Shown here piece by piece: positions 1,255-53,930 of a stretch of 64,000 nucleotides of DNA (position 1 is the first letter of the stretch; each line of letters begins with the position of its first letter). The stretch covers positions 62,001 through 126,000 of the forward strand of contig BDDD01000716.1 in NCBI GenBank assembly GCA_001972305.1, read 5' to 3'. The notes beneath the pieces were generated by a model that ran no database searches, had not been told where the DNA came from, and saw only the letters and a list, made by a program, of their open reading frames with translations. The translations under genes were made by a program, and so were the position numbers. This stretch comes from Cephalotus follicularis (taxonomy: Eukaryota; Streptophyta; Magnoliopsida; Oxalidales; Cephalotaceae).

Positions 1255-1390
1255 AACTTAAAACCCGCTTAAAGCGTCGACGGAATTGGTTTAAGAGTCG
1301 GCGCCTAGACCAATTTCCCCAATTTTGAACCCTAATTTTGCTTTAAAGCGCTGACGCTTTAAAAGCAACGGTCGGCGCTTAGCTCTGTTT
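1255..1390. repeat. GTCGAC-word array in the pol/third-frame spacer of copia A
   Basis: The spacer holds about four words of one type: GCGTCGACGG, GTCGGCGCCT, AAAGCGCTGACGCTTT and GTCGGCGCTTAG. The exact variant AAAGCGCTGACGCTTT recurs in this element's own LTR near 17950. In transcription order the array lies between pol and the third frame. The remaining spacer (1126-1254 and 1391-1517) shows no frame of note. Confidence 0.7.
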
Positions 1391-1517
1391 TTCTGCAGAT
1401 TTGCCGTTTTGTGAGTGAGAACGAATGCAAATGATGCAATCATGGAAAAATAAGCAATTTGAACAAACATGCATATTCACATCAATCATAGAAACATGTT
1501 AATCAGTCAATTTCACA

Positions 1518-2642
1518 CAAACCTAATTCCAATCTAAAATTCAAGAAGGTTTGTTCATCTAGGGGTTTTGTAAAAATGTCCGCGACTTGTTCTTCGGTCG
1601 GGACGAAAACTAATTCTATGTCACCCTTCTCAATGTGGTCCTTAATGAAGTGATATCTAATGTCGATGTGCTTAGTTCTAGAGTGATGAACGGGATTTTC
1701 CCCTAAGCATATAGCACTAGTTTTATCAACCTAATAGGCACTTTTTCAAAGGTAAAACCATAATCAAGAAGTTGTTGCTTCATCCACATTATTTGTGCGC
1801 AACAACTACTTGCAGCGATAAATTCGGCTTCGGTAGTCGAAAGTGCTACCGAATTTTATTTCTTGCTAAACCAAGAAATGAGCATATTGCCTAAGAATTG
1901 ACAAGTGCCACTTGTGCTCTTTCTATCCACTTTATATCCTCCGAAATCGGCATCGGAGTAAGTGTGTAGGTCAAATGATGATTTCCTAGGATACCATAAT
2001 CCTAAGGACGGTGTATATGCTAAATATTTGAAAATGCGTTTTATGGCATGCAAATGAGATTCTTTGGGACAAGCTTGAAATCTAGCACACAAGCATACAC
2101 TAAACAAAATATCCGGCCTACTTGCCGTTAAATATAACAACGATCCAATCATACTTCTATATAGTTTCTGATCGATTGACTTACCTTGCTCATCTTTGTC
2201 AAGCTTTGTTGTAGTGCTCATGGGTGTCTTGCTCTTTTTCGCATTCTGCACCCCAAATCTCTTAAGTAGGTCCTTGACGTACTTTGATTGATTGATGAAG
2301 ATGCCTTCCTCCAATTGTTTGACTTGAAGTCCAAGGAAGTAATTGAGCTCACCCATCATGCTCATCTCGAATTCCACCTGCATAATCTTAGCAAAGTTCT
2401 TGCACAATTTTATGTTAGTAGAACCGAATATGATATCATCCACATACACTTGAACAATCAAAATTTCATCATTGACAGATTTTGTAAATAGTGTAATGTC
2501 AATAGTGCCTCTTTTAAAACCATTTTCAAGTAAATATCCACTAAGATTTTCATACCAAGCTCTTGGAGCTTGTTTCAAACCATACAAAGCCTTTGAAAGC
2601 TTAAAAACATGGTTGGGATAGAGAGGGTTTTCAAACCAGGGA
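1518..2642 (-). pseudogene. Copia A pol, downstream part: reverse transcriptase C-terminal half and RNase H
   Basis: Minus-strand reading shows ALYGLKQAPRAWYE at the RT palm, then YVDDIIFG (catalytic DD, near 2425-2450), LNYFLGLQV, YLTASRPDI, and the RNase H stretch SDADFGGYKVDRKSTSG, all standard for the SIRE-lineage copia polymerase. Its upstream part lies beyond gypsy A at 13549. The fragment is a fossil of a copia polyprotein and is broken overall. Confidence 0.9.
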
Positions 2643-3301
2643 TGTCACGCCCCGAACCACAAGAGTAAACCCCCACGATCCGTCGCGCGAGATACGTTCC
2701 TTTCAGCCCATTTAGTCATATAATTCATACTCCAAAAAGTGCAATAAATTTAAAACTTTAAACCAAAGTCATATAAGCGAAAGAATCATATATACATCAG
2801 TGGAACTAATCAAAATCAAATAAAACTAACTCTTAAAATCTCTCGAAATTTCGGCATGAAGTATTCGTTTATAGAGCTAAACCCCCTGTAAAGGAAAACT
2901 CAATTTATATATTCACACTCCCGAAGGAGGAATCAACAATTTATGTACATATGGGGCTCAGCCCTTAGCGATCACAACTTAACCTGTATCATATCATTCT
3001 AATGCCTCAAATGATGGGCTTGTCCCTGTTTAATACATCAATACACATATCATAAGCACCGCCACATGTCGGCAGGTCGATAGCTGAAATGAAACATATC
3101 TAATATATCTTTAGATCTATCTCTTATACATAACAAGTCTAACATATCAGTACAGTTCATTTATAACCCGAGGACCTTTTACAATTCATATAAACAAATT
3201 CATATACAAGAAACTCCATATACAACTAGCCAACAAAATATGTTATAAAAAACCTGTCCTTCTCAGCTTACCTCACAGACGTCCATCACCTGTGCCTGAG
3301 C

Positions 3302-3348
3302 CTGACCCATTCCGCACACATGGGAAATGGGTCAGCGACATAATGTCG
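3302..3348 (-). other. Paired hairpins in gypsy A 3' LTR
   Basis: CTGACCCATT (3302-3311) and AATGGGTCAG (3326-3335) form a perfect 10-bp stem with a 14-base loop. It is followed directly by CGACATAATGTCG (3336-3348), a second short perfect stem. The first stem sequence is shared with gypsy F at 61961-61986, with a different loop. The other LTR copy has the same stem at 10395-10428. Confidence 0.75.
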
Positions 3349-3743
3349 TGTAGGTATACTATGCTATGCATGCAACATTATAAGAATGTATGTGTGCAAC
3401 AATATATCAATGTATGTCATGTAGTGCATCAGCATAATAGTGATATGCGTTCAACAGTGTAATATATATATGTATGGTATGTCGTGTGCACAAATGAAAA
3501 TTGCGGATGGCGTCAATATACCAGCTGTCCCTAAGCAGTGGTATACTGGGCTGGTCCTAATCACATAAAAGGCCATAGGCCTGCAGACAATCCATATACA
3601 ATCAATATCAATCATAGGGACAACCTGTCCATAGGTCTGAGTACTACTCTGCCCCTCCGGCCCGAGATAGTACTACCACCGACTACCTACCCTTTTGAGG
3701 TCGTAGCCGAGTGGGGAAGAGATAATGCTGATCACATCATGGC

Positions 3744-3910
3744 TAAGCCGTAAAAACGGTCAGAGCCCATAATATAGTGGTAAAGCCGTAAAAACGGTCA
3801 GAACCCATAAGGTGGTAAAACCGTTGTTCTGACCCATAAGGTGGTAAAGCCGTAAAAACGGTCAGAACCATAGTTGGTAAAGCCGTAAAAACGGTCAGAA
3901 CCCATAGGCG
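3744..3910. repeat. Tandem repeat in gypsy A 3' LTR, about 5 units
   Basis: Units of about 30-42 bp carry the core GCCGTAAAAACGGTCAG, itself an imperfect palindrome (CCGT-aaaa-ACGG). The other LTR has about six units at 10842-11046, which accounts for the 37-bp difference in LTR length. Confidence 0.85.
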
Positions 3911-4604
3911 CCAGGAACCTCCAATGATGATGTGATCGAACACCCATAATCCTCGCGACGGAAACGTAGGTTATGGATGAGTTACCTCATAGGTCTCAAA
4001 CAGTAGTATATATCATAGTTGTACCTTGTAATACTCGTAACCCATAACATATATTTGTTTAAGGGATAGGGACCATTTCATAAAGGATCTCGTAGGATCC
4101 ACATCCGTCAAATCATATAAAGATCATTTCGTAATCATAAGTCATTTTTCATATCCAATGGCCCTTTTTTGTGTCCATAATCCATTTTGTAATCAATTTT
4201 TCATATATCATTTGGTTGGTCCCTATCGAAGTTATAATGAATGGAAAGGGAGTCCAAATGGGAGTATCCGTGCCCAGATGTCCCAATGGAAGTACCTGAC
4301 CATTTCAAAATCCATAAAACAATGGAGAGGAAGTCCAAATAAGATATCTGCGTCTCGATATCCCAATGGAACTATCATGACCATTTTGAAAACCATTTAG
4401 AAACCACTTGCGTAAAACTCTTTTATTGAGTACTTTTCTTTAAACTTCACTTTGAACATCGATTTATAATTCAAAAGTGATACATAAGGATTTCCATAGG
4501 TTACAAAGCCTCAGGGAGGCTTTCTATGAAATCCGGTTGAAGATAAAACCATTTCGGATGGAAAACCATGTAAAACAGTGTGTTTGGGCTGAATAGGGCA
4601 CTAA

Positions 4605-4815
4605 GCGTCATTGCTTAGCCCTGGGCGTCAACAGTTTTAAAAAGCACAAGTATAAAGCGTCAGCGGTTTGTTTTAAAGCACAAGGCGTTGACTGTTTGGT
4701 TTAACACATAAAAGCGTCGACAGTAAGTTTAACACATAAAAGCGTCGACTATAAGTTTAACACATAAAAGCGTCGACAGGTTTAGTTTTGAAAGCATAAA
4801 GCGTCGACGGTTTCG
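4605..4815. repeat. GTCGAC-word array in gypsy A 3' LTR
   Basis: About eight words of the AAAGCGTCGAC type occur, the middle ones in a near-tandem frame of about 27 bp (each following AACACATA). On the transcribed minus strand the array lies about 140-350 bp upstream of a TATAAAT (complement at 4462-4468). The same words are found in copia A's LTR and spacer, a different superfamily. Confidence 0.8.
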
Positions 4816-5410
4816 ATAGAAAATGTAGTTTGTGGAAAAGTTCGCAAATCATTGGAACTATGTCCAAAATAGTTCGAAGCCTTTTAAAATTCATCCCATA
4901 GCCCAGGAATTGAGAGAAGGCAAGAATTCATCTTCTCTTAATTCAATATCGACCCTTATATCATAAGTCATATGCAATATGCATATCCATCCGTATACTT
5001 GTATATATATATATATATGTATATACAATGATTCATCCATGCAAGTACAATTCGTACACATATCAATCCAAATAATCATTTAGAATGCATGAATGCAATG
5101 CAAGCAATAGTATAACCTACCTCGTAATAACTGAGCTCGTAAAGCTCAGAAATCCTTTATCCTTAATCGTTTCGTTTATCCTTGATCATTTCGCTTATCC
5201 TTGATCGTTTCCTTTATCCTGCATGAACAACACATTTCCGTTACATTCTACGCACGGAAACCAAGAACAGCCGCTATAGAAGCTTCAGCCAGTTTCCGGC
5301 CTACTCATTCACTCCGGCGAAACCCAAAAACAGGTTCCACATTGGACAACATGTTGAAAACCATCAGAGGCTCATCGTGACTCGTCGCGAAATGCGTTGT
5401 CACGGCCGGC

Positions 5411-5733
5411 AATGAGTCAACTCACTGAGTCAACTCGCCAGACTTCAACAGTTCTGGTCAACACCCAAAAACGCCTTAACCGACCTTAAAATCCTTCACC
5501 CAATCCATTGGTGGACGTAACTCACCGTGAATCGGCGCTGAAATGCCCAGTCACGGTCGGCCAGTGAGTTCAACTCACTGAGTTGACTAGTCGGTCGTCC
5601 TCAGCTTCGGCCAACACCATAAAATGCATCACAATCATCATATAAACACACTACCAGCCTTAACTCGCCGAGACTCGGCGCACATTGCGCGGTCTCAGGC
5701 GACTGTGAGTTGGCTCCACTGAGTCAACTCGCC
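5411..5733. promoter_or_regulatory. TGAGTCA / GTTGACT clusters in gypsy A 3' LTR
   Basis: Three short clusters each combine TGAGTCA-like (bZIP/GCN4-type) and GTCAAC (W-box core TTGAC on the other strand) motifs, near 5411-5435, 5562-5590 and 5705-5733. The copies in the other LTR (about 12550-12872) are almost unchanged. On the minus strand these lie upstream of the TA run and the GTCGAC array. A promoter role is inference. Confidence 0.45.
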
Positions 5734-6413
5734 AGTTTGATTCCGGCCGTTTTCGGCCAAATGATGCCAAACCAGCCATTGAAATGGGTGTAGCCGGCCT
5801 CCTAGGTGAAGACTCGACCCACCCGCGATGCTAACCGACGGTGGAACACACGCCAGCGGCGTGACAGTGGCGACATCGGGGAGAAGAAAGATAGAGAAAA
5901 GGAAGAAGAGAAAGGGGAGGTTACCGTGGTGAAGTCGCGCCGCTCGCTTTCCCGGTCTGGCGCCTTCTCCGTCATCCTCTCCGGCGTCTCTCTTCCTCTC
6001 TGGTTCTCTCTCCCGAATGCCCTCTCCCACTGTCTCACTCTCTCCCACTCTTCTAACACACTCGGGCGCCTTATGCGCCCGAGTGTTGTTTTGTTTTTTT
6101 TCTTTTTTTTTTCTTTTTTTTGTCTTTTGTCTCTCCTTTAGTATTTACCAGCCAAAATACTAAGGCCTGGGTCCCGTTTAATCCCCAAACGGCAATATTA
6201 ATTATCCGAACGGGTACCAAAATAATCGCAATAAAAATGCGAACATAGGGACTTATTGTCGCGCATTAATAATGGCCTTATTAATCATTTTGGGCCTTAC
6301 GATTTGCGGCTCCAATATGCGATGCCTTTTGTTAATACGGGCTCCATCGGCTCAATACGGCCATACATTGTGCCAATATTAAAATAATTATTTATAAAAT
6401 TTGGGGCCTTACA

Positions 6414-6428
6414 TCCTCCCCTCCTTAG
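6414..6428 (-). other. Polypurine tract of gypsy A
   Basis: The minus strand reads CTAAGGAGGGGAGGA immediately before the LTR, preceded by the GGGACGAGATTTTTC context usual at the 3' end of chromovirus pol. Confidence 0.85.
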
Positions 6429-9400
6429 AAAAATCTCGTCCCGATATTTCCTAGGTTAAATCATGTGAGGGTAGAGTGTCCGCGTTTCTTTCTCGCGTCT
6501 CATATAACTTTCTCAAGCTCATAGCATTATCATCACACTTCACCCATGAAGCGTACTCATCCTTTAACCATTTGGTCCACGACCGTATAACCCGTTTCAT
6601 CGTCCTTCGGAGTCCATATCATTCCAAAACCATCTCTGAACATATATTTATATACATATATGTGAGTTCTCCTCAAGCTTGTATCCATCCTTAGCTCTAA
6701 CAACTCATATGGTAACACGCGAGAAGGATCTGGATAATACATTATGAGTATTGAGGTATGACCACCTTCTGAAATACATGATCTTCCCATGTGAGTTCTG
6801 CTAACGGCAGAAGTCCATTCCAACTGTTATCTCTATCCATCACGCTTCTGTGATGCCACCCTGATCCAGGCATATACTCTACCTTATATGGTAGGTTCCA
6901 ATCCTGTAGGTTGAGTGGTAAGGCAAGCCTATAGGATACTGTGCCCACTCCTTCGCCATGTCATTCCACCAAATTGAATTACAGATCTCGATACATCTCG
7001 CTAATCGCAGGATGTACTGAGAAACTGGAGCGATAAGCTTGAAACTATAGCTCCTCCGCTGGCTTTTCGTTGTAAAGGGCACAAACTCTGCCTTGGGATT
7101 TTATCAACTCATCACCACAAATCGAGAATTCTGGTTTCAATCCGTCTTGATCGTGTAATGTAGCTTTAAGCAATTCACCATCCATTCCTTGAGCCTCTCA
7201 ATTCTATCTATCAACCATGGTCATGCTTGAACTTAGGAGATTGTCAAGCAAGCTAATCAGCGACTTAAGGCGTCTGCAAGCATATTAGCATCGCTTGGTT
7301 GATATTGGATCTCACAGATGTAACCATTGAGTAGCTCCATCCGCCTTCTTTGTTTCATTTTTTGATCCTTCTAAGAGAAAGGATGTTTCAGACCCTTGTG
7401 ATCTGTGAAAACCTCTACTTTATGACGCGTAGATAGGGTCTCCATTGGCGTAGCGCACTGCTAACGCTGCAAATTCTAGGTCATGAGTGGAATAACTCAC
7501 TCATGAGGCTCCAACTTTCCTTAAGACATAGGGGCTCATTCTCTTACAATCTCAAAACACAATTTGCACCGTTCCCTGAGGCATCGCTACATACCACGAA
7601 AACATCATTGCTCTCAGGTAAAACCATGATCGGCGCAGATATAAGACGATGTTTTAACTCCTGGAAGCTCCCTTTACCACTGTCATCTTTTACATCCCGT
7701 CTTTCTGCGTCAATCGAGTCAAAGGTGTGGTCATCCGTAAAAATTCCTTAAGAAAGCGGCGATAGTAACCCGCTAAGCCTAAGAAACCACGGACTATTGT
7801 CACGTTTATCGATCATTCCCAATCCTTCACTGCTTCTATACTTGTTAGGTCCACAGACGAACCAGCACTGGTCAACGTGAACAAGGAAACTACCTCCAAT
7901 AACAAAACTCCATACTTTCTGAATTGGCATACCATTGGCGATCTCGCAAGACCTGTCGTGTTTAGTACAACCACTTCCCATGGAAATCCACAAGCTTGGA
8001 ATGCACTAACACATCATCGAAGGAGACTACGATGATATGGTCAAGATATGGATTACACACCCCTTCCATAAAGTTCATCAATGTAGTGAGGAATTGATCA
8101 TCGCCTTTAACGACACTACGATTCACCCACAAGTCCATATCGTGACTTGGAGATTTTTGATGATAACATATATCCAAATGGATCCATCTCTGTAATCAAT
8201 TTCTAACTCATCCATCAACAACACTAGGAGGTTCGTCGTCATATAGGGTCGGCCATCTTTATAGCGCATGACTCACACACACCTTCAGGTTGAATAGATT
8301 CTCCCATTGGGGTGTTAACTTACATAACATTCCATAAGGGTTCTGGTTTCACATTAGCATGACATATGAGTCACAAGGAAATACATGAACTGCGCGAATC
8401 CAGATCCATAACCGTATCTTTGCCATGCCATAACCATATACCATAAACTGTATATATATACGTCCTGTAGTCAGGGCTCGTCGACCCTTCCTCTCAGTGC
8501 CACACCGATCTACCACAGTCATCTCAGTCGGTGACCTGTTTGCTTCACATGTCATGGCCCTCACTGTCACACCATTGGTATATCTCCTGGGGTTTCAGAG
8601 GGGTTGCCTTTTTGAAGTCGGTCTACTCGGCAGCCTGACTAGGGAATCCTTTAAGGATAGAACCCAAGCAAATCCAGAAACTTCATATAAAACAGGACAT
8701 TTGGGCGTCAACACCATCCTCTAGGCGTCGACGTCATCACTGTAGGCGTCAACTTGTAACACTGGTTAATGCACAAAAACGCGAAAGAATGGTCATCGCG
8801 TCAACTCTTCACTCATAAGCATCGATGTTATGAACCAATGCGTCGATGTGTTGATCGACAGAGGGGTTGACAAACAAAGGAGAATTCGAGCCAAACCCCT
8901 AGAAACAATCAATCAGATACTCTGAACCCTTCTCTAGAGGTAAGGATGTTAACTCACCAGGAACCACGTCCAGGTATTCACAAACAACCAGAACATCCTC
9001 AAACATCGGTACCAGTCTCCTGTTATCGGTTACATATGCCAGATATCCACTGTAACCTTGTCCCATAATTCTATCAGCATGAAGAGCTGAAATCATCTGA
9101 ACTGGCTGATGATCCCAAGTCCCAATAAACTGGAATTGAGACTATCTTGATATATTGAAGGTCTTAACCTTCTCGTAACCATTCACATGGGTACAATGTG
9201 CTGCTAACCAATCCATCATATATCCTTAGGAGGGTTAACTAAACATACATACTGTCTTCCGACTATACCATCACAATCCGGATCATTACGATCCGTAACG
9301 ATACGATCCGCAAACATATCATATCTGTATCCATACCTTATCCCTTAGCCATAACCGCACGATCCCTAGCCGTACGATTCATGGTTGTACGGTCCGCAAC

Positions 9401-9716
9401 CGTATGATCCATAACTGTATAACCAGCCCATACCACAAAACTGTGAGACAAGGTCAAATTGTAGGTCCCCGATAATTCCCGACCGTGGAACTAGTCTAAA
9501 TGTGGTATGGTAGTTCCTTTCCTTTTCCGTTCCATATCTGCTTGTTTAAGAGACAAAGATTCAGCTATCGACTTCTTATACTCATAATTCCAAGATACTC
9601 CATGTAACACTTATCATTCCGCTATTCCAAATAACTCAAATTATAGCACTTTAACTCAATCAATCAATCTCAATTCCACTAGCCAAGGACCCTATCCTGG
9701 CGTATCCAGCATAGGA
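6429..9716 (-). pseudogene. Gypsy A core: heavily decayed gypsy pol remnants
   Basis: Only islands of Tekay-type pol can be read on the minus strand. These are the protease-RT linker (GYLAYVTDNRR near 8900-9070), an RT palm echo (YLDHIIVVSFDDVLVHS near 7990-8040), RNase H and integrase echoes (about 6740-7700) and an integrase C-terminal echo (GTVSYRLALPLNL near 6890). A GTCGAC-word array lies at 8700-8860. From 9100 to 9716 no gag is recognisable; instead a degenerate CGTACGATCC-like word repeats near 9262-9430. Many breaks. Confidence 0.75.
8700..8860. repeat. GTCGAC-word array inside the gypsy A core
   Basis: At least seven words occur (GGCGTCAAC, GGCGTCGACGTCA, GCGTCAACT, GCATCGATG, GCGTCGATG, GATCGACAG and others). 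This array lies outside the LTR, near the protease-RT linker remnant. Confidence 0.7.
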
Positions 9717-9717
9717 C

Positions 9718-9733
9718 CGGCTCTGATACCAAT
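9718..9733 (-). other. Primer-binding site of gypsy A (initiator tRNA-Met type)
   Basis: The minus strand reads TTGGTATCAGAGCCGG just inside the 5' LTR, the usual tRNA-iMet complement of plant gypsy elements. Confidence 0.88.
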
Positions 9734-10841
9734 CCTGTCGCGCCCCGAACCGCGAGAGTAAACCCCCACGATCCGACGCCCGAGATACGTTCCTTTTAGT
9801 CCATTTAGTTATATAATTCATACTCCAAAAAGTGCAATAAATTTCAAACTTTAAACCAAAGTCATATAAGCGGAAGAATCATATATACATCAGCGGAACT
9901 AATCAAAATCAAATAAAACTAACTCTTAAAATCTCCCGAAATTTCGGCATGAAGTATTCGTTTATAGAGCTAAACCCCCTGTAAAGGAAAACTCAATTTA
10001 TATATTCACACTCCCGAAGGAGGAATCAACAGTTTATGTACATATGGGGCTCAGACCTTAGCGATCACAACTTAACCTGTATCATATCATTCTAATGCCT
10101 CAAATGATGGGCTTGTCCCTGTTTAATACATCAATACACATATCATAAGCACTGCCACATGTCGGCAGGTCGATAGCTGAAATGAAACATCTCTAATATA
10201 TCTTTAGATCTGTCTCTTATACATAACAAGTCTAACATATCAGTACAGTTCATTTATAACCCGAGGACCTTTTACAATTCATATAAACAAACTCATATAC
10301 AAGCAACTCCATATACAACTGGCCAACAAAATCTGTTATAGAAAACCTGTCCTTCTCAGCTTACCTCACAGCAGTCCATCACCTGTGCCTGAGCCTGACC
10401 CATTCCGCACACAGGGGAAATGGGTCAGCGACATAATGTCGTGTAGGTTTACTATGCTATGCATGCAACATTATAAGAATGTATGTGTGAAAAAATATAT
10501 CAATGTATGTCATGTAGTGCATCAGCATAATAGTGATATGCGTGCAACAGTCTAATATATATATGTATGGTATGTCGTGTGAACAAATGACAATTGCGGA
10601 CGGCGTCAATATACCAGCTGTCCCTAAGCAGTGGTATACTGGGCTGGTCCTAATCACATAAAAGGCCATAGGCCTGTAGAAAATCCATATACAATCAATA
10701 TCAATCATAGGGACAACCAGTCCATAGGTCTGAGTACTACTCTGCCCCTCCGGCCCGAGATAGTACTACCAGTGACTACCTACCCTTTTGAGGTCGTAGC
10801 CGAGTGGGGAAGAGATAACGTTGATCACATCATGGTTAAGC

Positions 10842-11046
10842 CGTAAAAACGGTCAGAGCCCATAATATAGTGGTAAAGCCATAAAAACAGTCAGAGCCCA
10901 TAATATAGTGGTAAAGCCATAAAAACGGTCAGAACCCATAAGGTGGTAAAGCCGTAAAAACGGTCAGAACCCATAAGGTGGTAAAGCCGTAAAAACGGTC
11001 AGAACCCATAGTTGGTAAAGCCGTAAAAACGGTCAGAACCCATAGG
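10842..11046. repeat. Tandem repeat in gypsy A 5' LTR, about 6 units
   Basis: Same unit as at 3744-3910 with one more copy. Confidence 0.85.
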
Positions 11047-11742
11047 CTCCAGGAACCTCCAATGATGATGTGATCGAACACCCATAATCCTCGCGACGGA
11101 AACGTAGGTTATGGATGGGTTATCTCAGAGGTCTCAAACAGTAGTATATATCATAGTTGTACCTTGTAATACTCGTAACCCATAACATATATTTGTTTAA
11201 AGGATAGGGACCATTTCATAAAGGATCTTGTAGGATCCACATCCGTCAAATCATATAAAGATCATTTCGTAATCATAAGTCATTTTTCATATCTGATGGC
11301 CCTTTTTTGTGTCCATAATCCATTTTGTAATCAATTTTTCATATATCATTTGGTTGGTCCCTATCGAAGTTATAATGAATGGAAAGGGAGTCCAAATGGG
11401 AGTATCTGCGCCCAGATGTCCCAATGGAAGTACCTGACCATTCCAAAATCCATAAAACAATGTAGAGGAAGTCCAAATAAGATATCTGCGTCTCGATATC
11501 CCAATGGAACTATCCTGACCATTTTGAAAACCATTTAGAAACCACTTGCGTAAAACTCTTTTATTGAGTACTTTTCTTTAAACTTCACTTTGAACATCGA
11601 TTTATAAATCAAAAGTGATACATAAGAATTTCCATATGTTACAAAGCCTTAGGGAGGCTTTCTATAGAATTCGGTTGAAGATAAAACCATTTCGGATGGA
11701 AAACCATGTAAAACAGTGTGTTTGGGCTGAATAGGGCACTAA

Positions 11743-11955
11743 GCGTCATTGCTTAGCCCCGGGCATCAACAGTTTTAAAAAGCACAAGTATAAAGCGTCA
11801 ACGGTTTGTTTTAAAGCATAAGGCGTTGACTATTTGGTTTAACACATAAAAGCGTCGACAATAAGTTTAACACATAAAAGCGTCGACTGTAAGTTTAACA
11901 CATAAAAGCGTCGACAGGTTTAGTTTTGAAAGCATAAAGCGTCGACGGTTTCGAT
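11743..11955. repeat. GTCGAC-word array in gypsy A 5' LTR
   Basis: Counterpart of 4605-4815, with about eight words and several word-level substitutions between the two copies. Confidence 0.8.
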
Positions 11956-13548
11956 AGAAAATGTAGTTTGTGGAAAAGTTCGCAAATCATTGGAACTATG
12001 TCCAAAATAGTTCGAAGCCTTTTAAAATTCATCCCATAGCCCGTGAATTGAGAGAAGGCAAGAATTCATCTTCTCTTAATTCAATATCGACCCTTATATC
12101 ATAAGTCATATGCAATATGCATATCCATCCGTATACTTGTATATATATATATATATGTATATACAATGATTCATCCATGCAAGTACAATTCGTACACATA
12201 TCAATCCAAATAATCATTTAGAATGCATGAATGCAATGCAAGCAATAGTATAACCTACCTCGTAATAACTGAGCTCGTAAAGCTCAGAAATCCTTTATCC
12301 TTAATCGTTTCGTTTATCCTTGATCATTTTTCTTATCCTTGATCGTTTCCTTTATCCTGCATGAACAACACATTTCCGTTACATTCTACGCACGGAAACC
12401 AAGAACAGCCGCTATAGAAGCTTCAGCCAGTTTCCGGCCTACTCATTCACTCCGGCGAAACCCAAAAACAGGTTCCACATTGGACAACATGTTGAAAACC
12501 ATCAGAGGCTCATCGTGACTCGTCGCGAAATGCGTTGTCACGGCCGGCAATGAGTCAACTCACTGAGTCAACTCGCCAGACTTCAACAGTTCTGGTCAAC
12601 ACCCAAAAACGCCTTAACCGACCTTAAAATCCTTCACCCAATCCATTGGTGGACGTAACTCACCGTGAATCGGCGCTGAAATGCCCAGTCACGGTCGGCC
12701 AGTGAGTTCAACTCACTGAGTTGACTAGTCGGTCGTCCTCAGCTTCGGCCAACACCATAAAATGCATCACAATCATCATATAAACACACTACCAGCCTTA
12801 ACTCGCCGAGACTCGGCGCACATTGCGCGGTCTCAGGCGACTGTGAGTTGGCTCCACTGAGTCAACTCGCCAGTTTGATTCCGGCCGTTTTCGGCCAAAT
12901 GATGCCAAACCAGCCATTGAAATGGGTGTAGCCGGCCTCCTAGGTGAAGACTCGACCCACCCGCGATGCTAACCGACGGTGGAACACACGCCAGCGGCGT
13001 GACAGTGGCGACATCGGGGAGAAGAAAGATAGAGAAAAGGAAGAAGAGAAAGGGGAGGTTACCGTGGTGAAGTCGCGCCGCTCGCTTTCCCGGTCTGGCG
13101 CCTTCTCCGTCATCCTCTCCGGCGTCTCTCTTCCTCTCTGGTTCTCTCTCCCGAATGCCCTCTCCCACTGTCTCACTCTCTCCCACTCTTCTAACACACT
13201 CGGGCGCCTTATGCGCCCGAGTGTTGTTTTGTTTTGTTTTTTTCTTTTTTTGTCTTTTGTCTCTCCTGTAGTATTTACCAGCCAAAATACTAAGGCCTGG
13301 GTCCCGTTTAATCCGCAAACGGCAATATTAATTATCTGAACGGGTACCAAAATAATCTCAATAAAAATGCGAACATAGGGACTTATTGTCGCACATTAAT
13401 AATGGGCTTATTAATCATTTTGGGCCTTACGATTTGCGGCTCCAATACGCGATGCCTTTTGTTAATACGGGCTCCATCGGCTCAATACGGCCATACACTG
13501 TGCCAATATTAAAATAATTATTTATAAAGTTTGGGGCCTTACACGGGA

Positions 13549-17297: not shown

Positions 17298-17516
17298 TCA
17301 AGAAAGATTTGTGTTTTGATCTAAACCTCTCACAAGGTTGGATTTTACAAGATAGAATTGCTCAAAATAATGAGAACAAGAAATAGCTCAAAATGCAAAG
17401 TATAAACTATTTTGGTGAGCTTTGGATTTTGATACTCTTTGAATGTTTGCTTTGAATGATGTTTGTATATGTGCTTTGCTTGTGTTGTTCTCTCTTTCTC
17501 TTCAAAACATTCGTCC

Positions 17517-17523
17517 ATTTATA
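17517..17523 (-). promoter_or_regulatory. Candidate TATA box of copia A LTR
   Basis: The minus strand reads TATAAAT in a pyrimidine-rich context. It lies about 90-470 bp downstream of the GTCGAC array and upstream of the transcribed part of the LTR. Confidence 0.6.
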
Positions 17524-17614
17524 CCTTCTTGCCTCATAGATCCGTTGGAAGAGCATTAGCAAAAATTCCTTAATGGAATGTCCACTAAAACTCTGTCAGA
17601 AACTGTTTCAGCCG

Positions 17615-17990
17615 ACTAAAGCGTCGACTGTCTCCTTCAAAGCGTCGACTGTCTTGTGACCGTTGGGGATCACAAATTTGAATATTCAGCTCAAAGCGCA
17701 GGCATTCAAAATTAGAGTCGACCGTCACCTCAAAGCGCTGACGCTTAATCCGGGGCGTCGACGCTTAGGAAGATTTTAATTACCATTTTGTTCTCTGTAA
17801 CAAAGAGCAGGCGCTTTGCACTAAAAGCAGGCGCTTTGCACCTCAAAGCGTAGACGCTTGAATCTGGGCGTCGACGGTTTCAGTGTTATTTCTATTTCTC
17901 CAAACCTTCCACCGATAGACGCTTAGGTTCTTGTCTCGACCGCCTGGTAAAGCGCTGACGCTTTCAGCTTGGTCGTCGACGGTCTGGGCT
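17615..17990. repeat. GTCGAC-word array in copia A LTR
   Basis: About a dozen words: AAAGCGTCGACTGTC twice, GAGTCGACCGTC, AAAGCGCTGACGCTT twice, GGCGTCGACGCTT, GGCGTCGACGGTTT, GTCGTCGACGGTC, and relaxed forms such as GCAGGCGCTTTGC. Words are separated by 10-40 bp of unrelated sequence. Confidence 0.85.
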
Positions 17991-37076: not shown

Positions 37077-37091
37077 CTGAGGTTTGCTCAG
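37077..37091 (+). other. Conserved LTR inverted repeat, gypsy C right LTR
   Basis: CTGAG, loop GTTTG, CTCAG; position equals that in the left LTR. Confidence 0.65.
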
Positions 37092-37443
37092 CCGCGTTTT
37101 TGTTTTCCATGCGGCAGGTTTACTGGAGCAGCGGGGGAAAGTGTGAATGAGAGATGACCACTCTATGTATTGGATCCCTAGGAGTGAGACCATTTTGTTT
37201 ATTGTTTCGTGGTCATAACAAAGATACTTATGATTCTGTTTTATGTTTCGAATTTGAAACTTAATTATGTTTTCAGTATTTCACAAAATGATTATTTGTT
37301 AAGTTTTTAATGTTTTACTTATGATAAGACTGCCACGTTTTTGGCTGTTTTGGCTAATAAATAATGTTATGTTCAGATATGTTATGTAAGTATGTATGTA
37401 TGATATTGTCCCGTAACGACTCTCGCCGTCCGGGGGTGTTACA

Positions 37444-43239: not shown

Positions 43240-43780
43240 CGTCGACTTCTTTGTAAAAGGCGTCGATGTCTTTCAGTTGATAGCCGTTGGAAGTGCGTGT
43301 ATTAGCCGTTCCAGGTTTCCCGGGTCTTGTTCATTTAAAAAGACGTCGACTTCTTTTTAAAGGCGTCGATGTCTTTTCTGGGAAATCTCCAGGATATGAA
43401 TCTTTGAACATCACATCGACTTCTTCTGTGGGAGTCGATGCATTTTCTGGGAATTGCAGGTAGCTCTAGAAAGGCGTCGATGTCTATGGAAAGACGTCGA
43501 TGTCTTCTTTAATGTCGTCGATGTCTTTGATGTAGGGATAGATGTTTTTCAATTGCAAATCTATACAGTAGCTTCTGGCACTAAAGACGTCGATGTCTTC
43601 TTGAAAGTAGTCGATGTCTTTATGTAATAACGTCGATGTTATTTCTGGAAGGACGATGTTTTCATCAGAATTTGTACTTGCACTAAAGACGCCGATGTCT
43701 TTTGGAAGGGATCGACTTCTTTCGTATAGACGTCGATGTTATTCCTTGAAAGTCGATGTCTTCTTCTGCAGATGGTATTT
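43240..43780. repeat. GTCGAC/GTCGAT-word array in copia D LTR
   Basis: About 17 words, mostly GACGTCGATGTCTT and GACGTCGACTTCTT with GGCGTCGATG, AACGTCGATGTTA and ACATCGACTTC variants. The spacing is irregular (18-50 bp) and the intervening sequence differs, so this is not a simple tandem repeat. Confidence 0.88.
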
Positions 43781-43848: not shown

Positions 43849-45663
43849 TGTAATAACCGCAACTTCAATTAAATGTATATTGATCCAAATTTGAATTTTA
43901 ATATACATTTTAATTGAGTTATTTATCAAATTGTACTAATTTCTATGATTGGTAATTGTTAGGGAATGATTAAATGTGAAATTGGTGATGTATCAAAGAT
44001 TAGAAACCCTAATTTAGACCAAACAGCCGACTGTCATAGGGCAACAGTCGACTGTTTGCCACGTGATGAAGGCAGTCGACTGCCCACTAAATCCAGTAGA
44101 CTGGACTGCTCCTGGACAGATGCCTAGCATGTGCGAAGACAAGAAGGACAGATGGGATAATGGCCCATGCTCCTCACCACCTGCCAGAACATGCAAAAGT
44201 GAATGTTTGCATGTTCTCTGCAGATCTAAAACCACAAATTGATAAATTATGAAGGAAAAGTGAAAGAGGACAAGGCATGTAGGTGGAAAGAAAGAGTGGA
44301 AGTGAGTGCATGTGAGTAGGTGACAAATCTGTCGAATTTAGAGGGTTTTGAGAGTTATATCTGCTGATGAAATGGTGAAAGGAGTGTTAGAAAACATTGA
44401 GTGAAGAGAGGAATCATTGGAGCTTGCATTGGAGGATTAGGAAGCTCAAAGAAGGAATTTTGAGGCTTTAGACACTTGGTAAGTCCTTGATCCGAATTAT
44501 TTGTTGTTATGTTGATAAAAATGTGACTAGGAATGTTAAATATCTTCTGTTAATGGATTAGAATTAACAACTTTGGAAGTGAAATGAAAGTAATAATGGG
44601 ATCAAGTGGAAATTTGTGATATAGTCTCTAGAATGGATTTTGATTGTTGTTAGTGTTATGATACATGCTTAATGATTCCTAAGTATGTATATACCTACTG
44701 TTGAAACATACAAATCAGTAGATGGATTTAGTAAATTAGTTGGAATATGGAAGGTGTTTTAAATGGAACTAGAGGCTTAAGAGTTCTAGTAATTCTTGAT
44801 GCAACTAGATAATGATTATAGCCATTGATTTGTACATATACATACTGATTTCATGGATATATCTTCTGTCAAACAAGATAAAATCAATGAATTCGAGATT
44901 GAATAATTGTTGACATAGAGTTCAAAGGGGAATTGGAAATTGGAAGTTAAGACTTAGAGACTTAGTGATTTAAATTATCGTTGGAAATTGTAATTGTAGT
45001 AAGTAGCTAATGAAACCTACTGCTACTAATGCATGAGTCTATAAACATGCTTACATAGATTGATATTGCTGAATTGAAAGAGTGATTGGTGAAAGTGACT
45101 TGGAACTCAAAGAGAAAGATCAAACTCAATTGATCTTGGGATAGCGATTTGAGGTAGGGGTAATGATATGTTATGGAAGATATGAGTATGCATATTATGT
45201 ATGTTTATTTTCTGCATAATTACATGTATTGAATTGATTGGGAATTGAATTGGCATTGCATGACTTGCTATTTCTGCATTTTCTGGGCAGAGGCAGTCGA
45301 CTGCCACCCAAGGCAGTCGACTACTCAACCCAGCAGCCGACTGGTTCTTGATGGCAGCCGACTGTTCTGGGCAGAATTTGCATCATATCGATTGAATTGC
45401 TACTGTTGGTATTGTTATTGAATTGTGTATGTTACCACCATATAGTACATACTGTTTGATGTTATTTGACATCACTACTACTCATATTGCAATGATCAAA
45501 TGAACTATGTGCCTTATGCACAACTCATGGTTTTAAACACCATTTTCAAGTGAGAACTCTTATTGCAAGAATTATTGATTTATGAAAGTGTTACCAAATG
45601 TGCTACTGTCACATTATTATAAACTGTTTTGGTGTCATTATCACCACCACCACTTGTATTTCT
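43849..45663 (+). repeat. E LTR, first part
   Basis: AT-rich and non-coding as far as I can see. It carries CAGTCGACTG-type words at 44025-44105 (four) and 45294-45365 (four), the same dialect as gypsy C. Confidence 0.72.
44025..45365. repeat. Two CAGTCGACTG-word clusters in E LTR
   Basis: First cluster: CAGCCGACTGTC, CAGTCGACTGTT, CAGTCGACTGCC and CAGTAGACTGG (44025-44105). Second: CAGTCGACTGCC, CAGTCGACTAC, CAGCCGACTGG and CAGCCGACTGTT (45294-45365). Confidence 0.78.
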
Positions 45664-46332
45664 CCAGGTTTCCCGGGTCTTGTTCATTTAAAAAGACGTC
45701 GACTTCTTTTTAAAGGCGTCGATGTCTTTTCTGGGAAATCTCCAGGATATGAATCTTTGAACATCACATCGACTTCTTCTGTGGGAGTCGATGCATTTTC
45801 TGGGAATTGCAGGTAGCTCTAGAAAGGCGTCGATGTCTATGGAAAGACGTCGATGTCTTCTTTAATGTCGTCGATGTCTTTGATGCAGGGATCGATGTTT
45901 TTCAATTGCAAATCTATACAGTAGCTTCTGGCACTAAAGACGTCGATGTCTTCTTGAAAGTAGTCGATGTCTTTATGTAATAACGTCGATGTTATTTCTG
46001 GAAGGACGATGTTTTCATCAGAATTTGTACTTGCACTAAAGACGTCGATGTCTTTTGGAAGGGATCGACTTCTTTCGTACGGACGTCGATGTTATTTCTG
46101 GAAGGACGATGTTTTCATCAGAATTTGAACTTGCACTAAAGACGTCGATGTCTTTTGGAAGGGATCGACTTCTTTCGTACGGACGTCGATGTTATTCCTT
46201 GAAAGTCGATGTCTTCTTCTGCATATGGCATTTTGCTTTGATATTGAACTTGTGATTTCTTGCACATCAAGTAAATTTGTCAAATGCAAATATGTTATCA
46301 TCAAAACAAGGATTGGGACTAAATCGTCAACA
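45664..46332 (-). repeat. Copia D-type LTR piece inside E
   Basis: Near-identical to 43311-43848 plus the LTR tip (ending GTCAACA on the plus strand). A 100-bp segment with its GTCGAT words is present twice in tandem (45991-46090, 46091-46190) but once in the main LTR. Shows that array size changes quickly in this family. Confidence 0.85.
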
Positions 46333-46605: not shown

Positions 46606-46682
46606 ACTCATTCAAGGTTGTAGTCTCTCAATATTTTGAAAATAGTGTTTGGGAAGGAAAAAGCTCTAGAATTTCTTATCTC

Positions 46683-47158
46683 TATCTCAGTGGGGGATAA
46701 AGATTTTTTCTCATTTTCTTCTATCTCAGTAGGAGATGGAAATTTTCTCTTTCTTGTACTTTCTGTTGCTCTGTCAGATGACAGTGTCTCCATTATTCTT
46801 GGTTTTTCTATGAATGAATGAAAAATTGAACTCTTTTTATATGGACTTGGATGAGTGTGGAATGAATCTCTTTTATATGGATTCAGATGAGTGTGGTTAC
46901 TATTGTTAAATAGTAATTTGTCTGTAAATGGAATGTTCACACACAATGTTTTCATGCGCGCAGAACAAATAATAGTGGTATCACACACAAGAATTTTTTC
47001 AAGCACACACAATGATTGTAAACGTTTTTCAAATGTTTCATTCCTTTGCAGGAATCTTATCCTTATCTTAGTGGAGGATAAAGTATCACTCATAATTTTC
47101 TTTGTCTCAGTGGGAGAGAAAGTATCACTCATAATCTTCTTTATATCAGTGGGAGATA
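46683..47158. repeat. Five copies of a short hairpin word in the caulimovirid fossil
   Basis: TATCTCAGTGGGAGATA or a close variant occurs at 46683-46699, 46722-46738, 47065-47081, 47103-47119 and 47142-47158. Each can pair TATCTC with GAGATA over a short loop. The last three are in near-tandem at 38-39 bp, sharing AAAGTATCACTCATAAT between them. A further two-copy repeat (TTTTATATGGA...GATGAGTGTGG) lies at about 46828-46898 and contains the minus-strand TATA-like CCATATAAAAAG. Confidence 0.7.
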
Positions 47159-49099
47159 AAGTGTCTTCAATAGATTCCATTTCTTATAATCTCGAGAAAG
47201 CTATGATAATGTTTGGAAGTCTTTGAATTGATGTAATGGTTCCTAGATGTATATCAAGAAATCTAACATGTGTAATGAACAAATCCAAATTTATTTTTGA
47301 CAATACTAAATCATTGGGTTGAATAATTTTGTAAAATGTATATAAGTATTTAAAATGTTGTTCTTTTGAAATTGTTAAAATATCTTCAATATTCACAATT
47401 GAAAATGATGAATATGGAATAAATATATCATTCATAATTTTACTAGGAGTATCAAATAATATAACATTCCATTCGTAATGTTTAAGAAGGATAGTTGAAT
47501 ATGACTCAGTTAATCTTTTGACTAAATCTTTTTTGTTTGGAATAGGATTTATAGCAATATGTAATGGTCTAACAATATAATTTATGACTAATCTTGGTGT
47601 TTCTGCATAACTTAAAAGAGATTTGCTAGGCCTAATTAATTTTTTATTAAGTAAATTATGAATTTGTGAAGCGAGTAACTGTTGTTCAAGTTTTTTATTT
47701 GACATAAAATACAAAGTTTTTCGTTTGTTCTTATCAAATTTATAGAGTGTTCTTTAAATATGGATAATATTTTTAAAAGATTAATTTCTTTAGTAATTGG
47801 TTTTTCATTGAAAGTAAACAGAATTTTTTGTTGAAATAATTTTGTTGTAATTCCTTTATTTGTTACTTTAAATGATTTAATAACTTCTAGAAATGGTTGC
47901 CCTAGGATTATTCCTATGTCTATCTTTGATTAGGATAAATGATTGTTTGATGTAAATACCTCCATTACAGATATGGACATCAGAAATTTTGAATTTAACT
48001 CTAAGGTTTTCACTGTTAGCAGTGGATAATTTTTGTTCAGTTTTTTCAAAGAATTTTGTTGGGATTAATTCCTCTTGAATACAATTTATTTGTGCACTTG
48101 AATCTACCAGGACAATTGTTTGAAGTTTAAAAGAATCTTGAATTGTAATAATAATGTTAATATTTCATTTTTGGTATGTTATTCTTTCTGTTAAATTGAC
48201 AAATTTTGTTGTTGTTTCTTCTTGAATTCCTGGTTTAACAAGGTCAATTTATTCAACTTCTTTATCAGAAGAAGATGAAGATGACTGTTTTTGTAATAAA
48301 ATTTGTTTTAAATGTATAATTTGTTTCTTTGTTTAAATTTTTGTAATTCTTGTAAGGTTAAATTTTGTGATGGTGGATTTTAAAATCTTTGGAATATTTT
48401 TTGTAATGTGTAAGGTTGACTAATTGTTGTAATAGGTTCATCTGATATTACATCTCTTAATTTTAATAAATATGCTCTCTTTAATTTTGGGTCATCAATC
48501 TTATCAGATAATTGTATTAGTAAACTTGATTCTTTTTGTTTATCGGTATTCATCATAGAAATTGTTCGATTTTTATTATTTTGAATTTCTAGAGTGACTT
48601 CTTCTAATTTTTTATTATCATCATTCTCATGACTTTCTTGAATACTAGTAATTTCTTCTATAGGAAAATGTTTATTTTCTTTTTCTAAATTTATATTATT
48701 ATATTCTAAAATTTTCTCTTGTTCATAATGTTTTTTAGAATTGTGAATTTTAATGTTAGAATCATTAGATTCTTGTTCAGAATCTAAAGAAGAAATTTTA
48801 ATTTTTTGAACTTGTATTGAATATTCTGGATGTTGGAAACATTCAGTTTCTTCCTTAGAAGTTTGTTCATTAATTTTTTCAATTTCATGTGTTATTAATG
48901 ATGTCTTAATTTTTTCAATTTGCAAAGGAGTTGTTTGAATTTTACTAATTTCAACTTCTTTAGACAATGAATAAATATTTTCATCGTTAATTGTTTCTGT
49001 AAAAGAATACTTATTCTCTTTACCTTTTAATGGTATATTTCCTTCTTCAAAATGATTTTTACTTTCTAAATCTTTATCTTGTAAAATTTTTTCTTCTTC

Positions 49100-49500
49100 A
49101 AAATTTTTTTCTTTTTTGTCATGTTGTTGACTAATATAAATTGGTAAATAGTCAAAAAATATAACATTAGCCTTGATCGTAATCATGAACTCATACCATA
49201 ATATTTGAATATCATTTTGTTCTTCTTCAGAATATTTTTTTAAAGAATTTGGTTCTTTTTTGTAAATATTTTTCTTGAAGGAAATATTTTCTAATTAAAT
49301 CTTTGTTAATTTCAAATGGTTCATTAATTTTAATTTTTTTCGTTTTTGTTTTCTTGTTGATTAATGTAAATAGGTAAATAGTCGAAAAACATAATATGAG
49401 ACTTGATTTTAATCATAAACTCATACCATGCAGTTCGGATATCGTTTTGTTCATTTTCAGAATAAATTTCAAAGAATATGTTTCTTTTTTGCAAATATTT
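49100..49500 (-). repeat. Diverged 230-bp tandem duplication in the caulimovirid fossil
   Basis: Sequence from about 49100-49270 recurs at about 49330-49500 with a 230-bp offset. Both copies encode a MIKIK...FFDYLPIYI.QQ stretch followed by Lys/Glu-rich sequence, and differ at roughly a fifth of positions by eye. Confidence 0.65.
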
Positions 49501-50045
49501 TTCTTGTAAAAAATATTTTCTAATCAGATCTTTATTGATTTCAAATAGTTTGTCAATTTTAATCATTTGAAGTTTTATTTCAGAGTGTGTGGGGGAAATG
49601 GTTTCTAAATCTATAGATTCTTTGATTTTAATAGTATTAGTTTGATTTTTAGATTCATCTGCTTTTTTAATTTCTAATCTAGTGTAACAATTTTTTCTAG
49701 TATGATTAGGTTTTCCACAATAATAACAATTATAATAAACTTTTTTATTTGGTATTTTCAAATTTTCTTTTTGCTCTATTTTTTATTCTATTAGTTGAAT
49801 ATTTTGTTGATTCTTATTAATTTTTATGGTTTGATTCTTATCAATTTTTTGAATTCTTTTATCAATTTCTTTAACTGAAATCTTTCTAAGTTCAGTCTTT
49901 GGAGGTTTCCGATTTTGCATTTGTTTTATTCTTTCATCTAATTTTTTATCTCTATTTGAATTATTACTAGTTTATGAACTACTAAATGATTTCGAAGACA
50001 TAATCCTACATAATTTATTCATGTTTAAAGAAATTTTAAAGTTTC

Positions 50046-51790: not shown

Positions 51791-52108
51791 CAGCAAGGGT
51801 TAAAAGAATATGAATAAGGCAATATGCACAAAAAATATCATAATATCGGCAATGATCATAATTATGGACAATAATTGAGAAAACATTAATCATACAATAC
51901 AATTATATCATAAATCAGAAACTCATTCATACAATCATAAACACAATTCATAAAACACAATCTCATAAACACAATTGCATAAACATTTCATTAATATCAT
52001 AAATTCAAACTTGTTCTTACAAAAACTATAAAAGAAATGAACACTAAGGTTCATTACAACATCAAACAAAAAACAACAACAAGAAATAAAACAGAAACAA
52101 CAACAAGA

Positions 52109-53422
52109 TCATTCATCAGCAGGAGGGGTATCGGATTCGGATTCATCGCCTGAAGTCTCTTCGCAACGATCAATAGTCTTGGAGTCAGCAAGCTTTCTTT
52201 CCATTCTTTTTAGACGCCTCTTTACGACTTTTAGATCGTAGTAGATGGTGTCATCAACGTTTTCGAAGTCAAAATGAATAATTTTATGATCACCCTCCAA
52301 TCTAGTGAGCCGCGAGTTGACTTGCTTAAGTTCATCTTTAAGCGAGGCTTGCATGGCAGCAAATTGAGATTGCATGAACTCCATCATCCTGTCATAATCA
52401 GAAGTGGATGAAGTTCCTTGGGCTTGAGGCTGAGCAGGTGCAGCTTGTTGTTGAGCTTCCCAAGGAGGGTTCACTTCTTGCTCTTCAATGGCAATCATTG
52501 GTCCTTGATCCACTTTAGGCAAATAGGTCCAAATCCCTTCTTGTTTCTTCCACCCCATCTAATTCAACGTACTCTTGTTGTATGTATCTTCTTTCTTCAA
52601 CTTGGTTGCAATATCTCCTTCTAGCCGAATGTGACAATGTTGGAAGACTTTGGTAAGAATGGATCCGAAGGGGAGTACGGATTTCTTTTGTGAAAATGCT
52701 CTTACCATAGTCTTCAGCATGAGGAGAGGAAAACAAAAATCAATTTTTGAAATGATACACCACATTAGGAAAACTTGCATCCTAGATAATTTTGCATACC
52801 CTCCACCGGTGGGTAGAATTTGATGTACGATGAGATGGTGGAGAAGCCTATGGTCTACTGACAATTTATTGGTGGTCAGTGCCATATTGGGATGAAAATT
52901 TGGATCGTTGGGATAAAAAATCAACAAAATTTGGTTAGGGTGAAAACCCTCAACCTCCGGCCATTTTTTGTGTTCAAAAACATATAGACCGGTGTGTGGA
53001 ATATGCAAGATAGAAGCTAGAATCCTAGCATCTAGATAAATCCTCTGCCCTTTAACAGATGAGGAGATTGCAAATTCCTCATTTTGGGCAGAAACCATCC
53101 TTAGGTTAGAATAAAATTCTTTAACCAATTTTATGTAAAATGGGTCAGAAATTTGAACAAGAGGGAGAAGATGGAGGTCATCTAACCAGGAAACAAAGGA
53201 AAATTCGGAAGAACAGAAATCTAAATCAATATTTCTGCCTCCCATTACTCGTTTTTCAACAAAAGATATAGTCCTAATAGGAATTTGCTCTTCAGATGAG
53301 GAATCCGATACAGAGGGATCGGGGGAAGATTCCCTAAGCTCAAGCCTCTGCTTCTTAGCAGATTTCTTAGGCTGAGATGTAGAAGCAACCTTCTTTTTGG
53401 CAACTTGTTTTGACCTCGACAT
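52109..53422 (-). pseudogene. Third frame of copia D: plant 'Transposase_32-like' protein
   Basis: Starts MSRSKQVAKKKVASTSQ (basic, possible nuclear signal), then a Ser/acidic stretch (SSPDPSVSDSSSEEQ). The domain follows, with SFVSWLDDLHLLPLVQ, IKLVKEFYSNLRMV, VKGQRIYLDARILASIL, DHRLLHHLIVHQILPTGGGYAKLSRM and SILTKVFQHC. It is continued by a Gln/Pro/Ala-rich linker and a long coiled coil (FMQSQFAAMQASLKDELKQ, LTRLEGD, LKRMERKLAD) with an acidic tail. Same layout and position as copia A's third frame; no membrane segment seen. Nearly whole, about one break. Confidence 0.8.
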
Positions 53423-53634
53423 ATTGTCAAGCAGATGGTGAGTACACTAGAAAAACACAGGGAATGAAAAATATAGACGGATTGGTCAAGACGAAAGGAG
53501 TTTTTGAGGTTGTAAAAGTGATCAGAGGATTGTTTTCGAACAAAACAGAACGATTTTTGAAGAAAAATAAAGAGAGTAGAAAATTTTTGAAAACTCAGAA
53601 ATGGAGGTAAGATGAGAAATGAGCAAGAGGTCAA

Positions 53635-53643
53635 CTTTTTATG
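53635..53643 (-). promoter_or_regulatory. TATA-like site between word array and third frame of copia D
   Basis: The minus strand reads CATAAAAAG about 210 bp upstream of the third-frame ATG and directly downstream of the word array. Weak on its own; noted because LTR arrays have the same array-then-TATA layout. Confidence 0.3.
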
Positions 53644-53644
53644 A

Positions 53645-53930
53645 AGCAGTCGATTTTCTGAGCAAAAGACATCGACGTGATTCAAAAGAAGTCGACGCGA
53701 TCTTTAAAATAAAGCTACAAAAACGGTGCGTTTTATAAAGCATCGACGCGTTTGAAATGAAGTCGACGTGTTTCAAGAAAAACACAAAGAGATCGACGTT
53801 TTACAAAAAAGGTCGACGTGATTTTCATAAGTCACAAGTTTTCCAGAAAAGGAGTCGACGCCATTTTGTAAAGCATAAAAATTTCCAAAAAAGGAGTCGA
53901 CGTTTTTGTGTAGCATAGCACAAAATTAAG
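53645..53930. repeat. GTCGAC-word array in the pol/third-frame spacer of copia D
   Basis: Nine words: AGTCGATTTTC, GACATCGACGTGATT, GAAGTCGACGCGATC, GCATCGACGCGTTT, GAAGTCGACGTGTTT, GAGATCGACGTTTT, AGGTCGACGTGATT, GAGTCGACGCCATT and GAGTCGACGTTTT. Spacing about 20-45 bp. Confidence 0.85.

Follow-up and report, generated by a model that had tools for sequence, protein, structure and literature searches.

Arrays of short palindromes in long terminal repeat (LTR) retrotransposons have been described for the Sireviruses, where they are known as repeated motif (RM) boxes: many copies of a palindrome precede the TATA box within the upstream half of the LTR, and extra copies are found upstream of the env-like gene (PMC2829016). 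In the same account the boxes have a CGG-CCG core in 12 of 13 elements, occur in a minimum of eight copies per element and are called Sirevirus-specific, and no common binding factor could be named for them. Here we analyse arrays of words centred on GTCGAC in a 64,000-bp stretch of the Cephalotus follicularis genome (assembly GCA_001972305.1, contig BDDD01000716.1, positions 62,001 to 126,000; hereafter the window), which consists of nested Ty1/copia and Ty3/gypsy LTR retrotransposons in a host genome of 1.58 Gb. The words are palindromes in two covarying classes, and the phenomenon far exceeds the window in scale.

Apart from Sireviruses, a comparable layout is known from Arabidopsis DNA transposons with a cis-trans system of silencing escape. 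VANDAL elements encode VANC, a sequence-specific DNA-binding protein, and carry dense arrays of short motifs in their own non-coding DNA, with motif variants that differ by family; the unrelated element AT9TSD1 bears VANC6 motifs (PMC5735166, PMC10398659, PMC12859917). Retand elements, Ty3/gypsy retrotransposons with TRP28 open reading frames (ORFs), have tandem repeats between pol and the 3′ LTR and an additional antisense ORF with a domain predicted to be DNA-binding (PMC11963269). They share with the elements described here the combination of repeats and an additional ORF in an LTR retrotransposon, but their tandem repeats are family-specific, the domain is another one, and that source presents no shared palindrome and no link between repeats and protein. 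Short interrupted repeat cassettes (SIRC) of Arabidopsis likewise consist of short words with unrelated spacers, often in transposons; they differ in having 2–8 direct repeats per cassette and many repeat sequences, and the description available mentions neither a shared palindrome nor phasing (PMC10342631).

An earlier note on the window, made by inspection of the sequence, had listed 13 intervals with such arrays, and the clustering it saw is real. The intervals take up 4,683 of the 64,000 bases (7%) and hold 38 of the 42 GTCGAC hexamers of the window, or 85 of 105 sites once GTCGAT and ATCGAC are added. With first-order Markov statistics taken from the window, 100 simulations gave an expectation of 5.6 GTCGAC over its whole length, with a maximum of 13, and of 24.3 for the three hexamers together, with a maximum of 38. 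The coordinates hold overall, with qualifications for three intervals: 44025–45365 is no array and comprises two pairs of words separated by 1.2 kb, the array at 8700–8860 is weak, and 1255–1390 has a single clear word, at 1276.

Abundance was assessed in a sample of 240 kb, made up of six genome blocks on six other contigs, while array and spacing statistics were obtained from 312 kb, which comprise the window, the 8 kb preceding it and those blocks. GTCGAC ranks first of all 6-mers in the 240 kb when the observed number is divided by that expected from dinucleotides (314 against 42, with both strands counted); in a ranking by maximal-order Markov z-score, CGACTG/CAGTCG and GACGTC precede it. 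Over-representation amounted to 79-fold for CGTCGACG and 45-fold for AGTCGACT, and CTCGAG and TTCGAA showed none. It should be added that GACGTC (3.2-fold) and CTCGGC / GTCGGC (about 3-fold) are likewise over-represented in the six blocks, as is GTCGGCTG (16-fold), which resembles a variant of the A-class word defined below.

The three “dialects” into which the words had been sorted collapse to two palindromic classes, A-GTCGAC-T (A class) and C-GTCGAC-G (C class): one dialect makes up the A class, and the other two are shades of the C class, to which AAAGCGTCGAC and AAAGRCGTCGAYGYC both belong. At 199 sites the -1/+1 flanks were A..T in 92, C..G in 41 and mixed between those two in 23. After removal of related contexts mirrored flanks were present at 39 of 70 sites against 23.5 expected, with a shuffle p of 0.0005, the lowest value obtainable with 2,000 shuffles. 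Beyond -1/+1, these 70 sites showed covariation at positions 3, 5 and 7 (p ≤0.03), with position 8 at 0.053, and none at positions 2, 4, 6 and 9–12. Genome-wide, there are 339,984 A-class sites, 223,473 C-class sites and 83,196 mixed ones (odds ratio 44), against 23,357, 8,375 and 32,119 for the same three 8-mers reversed (odds ratio 0.76); AAAGCGTCGAC itself occurs 104,797 times and its reversed pattern 280 times. Arrays are nearly class-pure: 46 of the 51 arrays of at least three words in the 312 kb, a count which includes many arrays copied from one another, are without any word of the other class, and five, including that in the copia F linker of the window, are mixed.

The words are also regularly spaced. 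Neighbours closer than 19 bp are rare, and the favoured steps between them correspond to 2, 3, 4, 5 and 7 helical turns. Genome-wide, the number of GTCGAC pairs for each bp of centre-to-centre distance is 559 at 9–18 bp, 35,253 at 19–23, 1,563 at 24–27, 5,550 at 28–32 and 646 at 33–38, counts that include copies of the same arrays and cover spacings of 9–38 bp; pairs of the reversed control pattern total 1,018, 1,828, 398, 327 and 356 in the same bins. The pattern persists in a deduplicated set in which each interword sequence is counted once (133 distinct ones among the 248 neighbour pairs of the 312 kb), with 7.4 pairs per bp at 19–23, 0.5 at 24–27, 3.2 at 28–32, 0.17 at 33–38, 2.2 at 39–44, 0.75 at 45–48, 3.6 at 49–53, 0.6–0.8 at 54–69, 2.6 at 70–74 and 0.2–0.5 at 75–100 bp. 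The Rayleigh test has its maximum at 10.5 bp (n=131, p 3e-14, resultant 0.49 versus 0.31 at 11 bp); when the 19–23 class is dropped (n=94) it stays high, with a weaker contrast and resultants of 0.40 at 10.5, 0.40 at 10.75 and 0.34 at 11 bp, and a far harsher reduction to ten connected components gives p 1.4e-4 at 10.25 bp (n=156). These p-values presume independent spacings, of which related arrays fall short. The spacing observed is what dimers with a footprint of close to 19 bp, all seated on the same face of B-DNA, would yield. The layout is reminiscent of the EBNA1 sites in oriP of Epstein-Barr virus, palindromes of about 18 bp which lie 21 or 30 bp apart and are bound as arrays; the analogy is one of layout alone and implies no relationship.

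Two explanations that dispense with a DNA-binding protein can be weighed against these data. The words might act in RNA, neighbouring palindromes pairing in the transcript to form hairpins or give small RNAs, and symmetric covariation is indeed equally expected of an RNA stem; local RNA structure and small RNAs have been studied in maize elements (PMC10760457). A loopless perfect palindrome makes a poor hairpin, however, and the 10.5-bp period is that of B-DNA, even if its contrast is weaker without the 19–23 class (0.40 versus 0.34), so we regard action in RNA as quite improbable. Alternatively, a functionless 20–21 bp minisatellite unit could have expanded by slippage within each LTR. Many neighbours do lie 20–22 bp apart, some arrays are called by Tandem Repeats Finder, and local duplication surely aids array growth. 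But the centre is identical and the two classes recur across unrelated families, the steps of 28–32, 39–44, 49–53 and 70–74 bp are separated by sparse bins, the core is kept more than the spacers, and the sequences between words differ, as the deduplicated count demonstrates. Minisatellite growth is on these grounds the least credible of the explanations considered, and the earlier conclusion that the arrays are not one satellite carried along is upheld by the same interword differences.

The words lie for the most part in non-coding DNA. The comparisons of word density and of dialect by superfamily proposed in the earlier note were carried out with the sample and genome-wide pattern counts, not with a full LTR annotation: the words are enriched in LTR-like repeats, and the C class cuts across copia and gypsy. 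In LTR-like direct repeats (at least 200 bp, 85% identity, 0.3–25 kb apart, coding matches excluded) the density is 1.60 per kb (114 words in 71 kb); it drops to 0.064 in coding matches of transposable elements (6 in 93 kb) and is 0.62 in the remaining sequence (91 in 148 kb). Five control palindromes averaged 0.24, 0.19 and 0.21 per kb each in LTR-like, other and coding sequence, respectively.

Words are, furthermore, kept better than other CG hexamers between diverged relatives. In alignments that are not mutually independent, core hexamers were intact in 149 of 174 cases at 94–100% identity (other NTCGAN 42/61, other CG hexamers 1,046/1,316), in 32 of 43 at 88–94% (76/121 and 664/1,257), in 120 of 158 at 80–88% (33/108 and 481/1,288), in 150 of 261 at 72–80% (35/209 and 564/2,486) and in 97 of 470 at 60–72% (27/818 and 328/5,732). 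In a stricter set of 83 alignments 123 of 252 core hexamers were intact versus 753 of 2,850 controls; the core did better than the control in 46 alignments and worse in 28, with ties or no control in the others, and many of the 28 overlap pol matches by coordinates, where the “words” are chance sites.

Within the window, C-class arrays are carried by copia A, copia D, copia F, gypsy A and gypsy B. The 5′ LTR of copia A (17303–18111, minus strand; the other LTR lies upstream of the window) has six C-class words at 17623–17980, i.e. 131–488 bp from its 5′ end, and a TATA-like box at 588 of 809. Nested within copia A is gypsy A (2643–13543), with words at 4716–4808, spaced by 28–31 bp, in its 3′ LTR (2643–6413, minus) and at 11854–11946 in its 5′ LTR (9736–13543, minus). 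Each gypsy A LTR also contains a tandem repeat of 33–35 bp (3745–3906 and 10833–11044) in about 4.8 versus 5.9 copies. The chromovirus gypsy B (18823–30048), with gag-pol at 20665–25239 (plus) matching the Tf2-1 SH3 and chromodomain, is nested within an LTR of gypsy C; it carries words at 18998–19111 in its 5′ LTR (18823–20557, plus) and at 25460–25573 in the first part of its 3′ LTR. Ten more C-class words (28419–28739) belong to a 0.9-kb stretch which splits the 3′ LTR parts 28175–28330 and 29269–30048 and is missing from the 5′ LTR, either by insertion in the former or by deletion in the latter. In copia D, LTR arrays of 15 words, often 19–22 bp apart (43241–43757), and of 17 words (second copy, 45698–46210) are present, the 17 words occupying 123–635 of the LTR. 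Its assignment is based on the adjoining copia ORF and on the LTR 5′ end near 46333, which resembles the LTR end of copia A at 84% over 77 bp.

Assignable A-class arrays were those of gypsy elements and of “LTR E”, with no systematic search for A-class copias made. The 3′ LTR of gypsy C (34706–37443, plus), which together with its split partner delimits an element interrupted by copia A and by gypsy B, has A-class words at 35905–36044, and “LTR E”, 83% related to the LTR of a chromovirus in one of the genome blocks, has two A-class words at 44047–44080 and two more at 45296–45321. The direct copies of the copia D array that flank “LTR E” (43310–43766 and 45663–46119; 457 bp, 97.6%) are much longer than any target-site duplication.

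As the earlier note had maintained, copia and gypsy elements share words without other LTR similarity. When the LTRs of copia A were compared with those of gypsy A, a permissive search found only four matches, of 14–18 bp and located at words; for copia D and gypsy B the shared stretches were all ≤53 bp, within arrays. An artefact of a single family can be rejected. In an integrase tree of 18 elements (gypsy A excluded as too short) most clades were of a single class. The labels were set manually according to where LTRs lie in the nested blocks, which left two elements without a class and one queried; the A-class element C1500 has an integrase 77–83% identical to three C-class elements (83% to gypsy B), and four of the 18 are without words in the LTRs examined, one of them with an LTR truncated at the block end. 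Mixed classes among close relatives together with wordless elements indicate that words have been gained, lost or switched.

The closeness of A-class C1500 to C-class gypsy B and the near purity of arrays would suit short-patch gene conversion or template switching that moved words between elements, with retention by chance. This mechanism, which the earlier note had offered as one of two readings, may have been a route of word spread; it leaves retention, phasing, minimum spacing and conservation unexplained, and as a full account it is very improbable. The other reading offered was convergence on sites for one host DNA-binding protein. That a single protein binds the words has strong support in their dyad symmetry and the covariation of their half-sites, in the helical phasing and minimum spacing of arrays, in the near absence of words from coding sequence and in their conservation; as to its origin, a copia-encoded protein is the candidate favoured here.

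The statement that no description of such sharing was known has to be modified, since Sireviruses are on record as carrying palindromic arrays both in their LTRs and ahead of the env-like gene (PMC2829016), and the phenomenon is partly known already. As regards sharing with Ty3/gypsy, the statement stands within the literature searched: open-access papers, with most subscription papers outside the search, contained no report of it, nor any of phasing to the helix or of a protein proposed as binder. By their sequence features the copias of the window resemble Sireviruses. Both copia A and copia F have an env-like ORF, by position, between pol and the 3′ LTR, a feature of part of the genus, and multiple identical polypurine tracts: three G5 tracts lie within 1.3 kb before the 3′ LTR of copia A and three in the 2 kb downstream of the copia F ORF (3′ LTR unplaced), with a background of 0.21 per kb.

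The words agree with RM boxes in dyad symmetry, in their upstream-LTR position in copia A, ahead of the TATA-like box, and in copia D, and in the extra copies upstream of the env-like gene. At least eight copies are reached by copia D and copia F, whereas copia A has seven in LTR and linker. A GTCGAC centre is seen in the Vitis Sirevirus motif CGGTCGACCG as well (PMC2829016). The departures are the core, here GTCGAC with A..T or C..G outside instead of CGG-CCG, and the occurrence in chromovirus LTRs in place of confinement to Sireviruses. Moreover, unlike RM boxes as reported, the words are helix-phased, fall into two covarying classes and number several hundred thousand copies.

The env-like ORFs of both copias match PF20167 (Transposase_32), and words stand shortly upstream of those examined. 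In copia F, nine words (53649–53901) occupy the linker between pol, represented by the integrase/reverse transcriptase (RVT_2) ORF at 54283–56334 (minus), and the PF20167 ORF at 52112–53422 (minus; limits as aligned to a 437-aa relative), whose frame is open over 52559–53446; the best 120 of 439 protein matches of the latter are all CFOL_v3 proteins. The copia A linker has one clear C-class word (1276–1281) beside the PF20167 ORF at 1–1125 (minus), which continues past the window start. An initial search returned 13,073 PF20167 candidates genome-wide, and the larger part of 150 scored candidates had stop-free frames; such frames and such numbers suggest a recently amplified element gene. The same Pfam family has been found in an additional ORF 3′ of pol in sunflower Athila, its product predicted to be nuclear and, in that report, of unknown function (PMC11728184); Athila is a Ty3/gypsy element, whereas here PF20167 occurs in Sirevirus-like copias with words upstream.

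The predicted fold of PF20167 resembles that of the Arabidopsis anti-silencing protein VANC21, in one model and with a modest TM-score; no VANC Pfam family was among the matches of the PF20167 ORF listed up to E 10, nor was a VANC chain found up to E 10 in a profile search of PDB sequences. The parallel with VANDAL elements extends to short-motif arrays in the non-coding DNA of an element, here beside an ORF whose binding is putative, to the existence of variants, by family there and in two classes here, and to carriage by unrelated elements, AT9TSD1 there and gypsies here. In contrast, VANDALs are DNA transposons, and their motifs are arrayed in one orientation, the 2017 text never calling them palindromes (PMC5735166).

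Taken together, these data are consistent with words being sites of a homodimeric DNA-binding protein which would assemble cooperatively on one DNA face, the arrays serving as operators in non-coding control regions, that is, in LTRs and, in Sirevirus-like copias, before the env-like gene. They would thereby represent the repeated motif of Sireviruses in enlarged form. Among candidate binders the most likely would be the PF20167 product itself, a protein predicted to be VANC-like. By occupying palindromes in LTRs and ahead of the gene that encodes it, this product may exert positive feedback in copias, and prevent silencing of those elements, as VANC does, or activate them; the two classes would mirror two binding specificities, and Ty3/gypsy chromoviruses would have evolved or captured words, exploiting the factor in trans. 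We give this account as a whole an even chance. The binder might instead be a host protein, either an exploited transcription factor or a silencing factor that recognises transposons, with elements converging on its sites or exchanging them. In favour of this are the sharing of words by copia and gypsy elements with otherwise dissimilar LTRs and the fact that no PF20167 was found alongside the gypsies of the genome sample; all the binding-site evidence suits any dimeric protein. On the other hand, words precede the copia env-like ORF, an element gene, and their conservation between diverged lineages suggests a benefit to the elements, which makes a purely silencing role less likely; a host binder is possible, if rather unlikely.

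Occupancy by PF20167 would carry a broader proposal, which we put forward tentatively and at somewhat less than even confidence: the Sirevirus env-like gene may encode, in place of an envelope, a VANC-like anti-silencing factor that recognises specific sequences, with the palindromic boxes as its operators, and two of its specificities may have been captured by Cephalotus gypsies, giving a cross-superfamily regulon of more than half a million phased palindromes. If true, this would provide one testable answer both to what Sirevirus palindromic boxes bind and to the role of env-like or additional ORFs in plant retrotransposons, and would reveal a cis-trans silencing-escape system common to, or parasitised across, Ty1/copia and Ty3/gypsy. 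It may also help explain the growth of the host genome to its present size.

Other features of the window include two adjacent minus-strand ORFs (48380–49294 and 49330–49782), each matching DUF7588 (PF24496), beside which two ORFs at 46608–47753 are without a Pfam match. Two adjacent groups of tandem repeats lie at 62332–62888, their periods ranging over about 17–56 bp.

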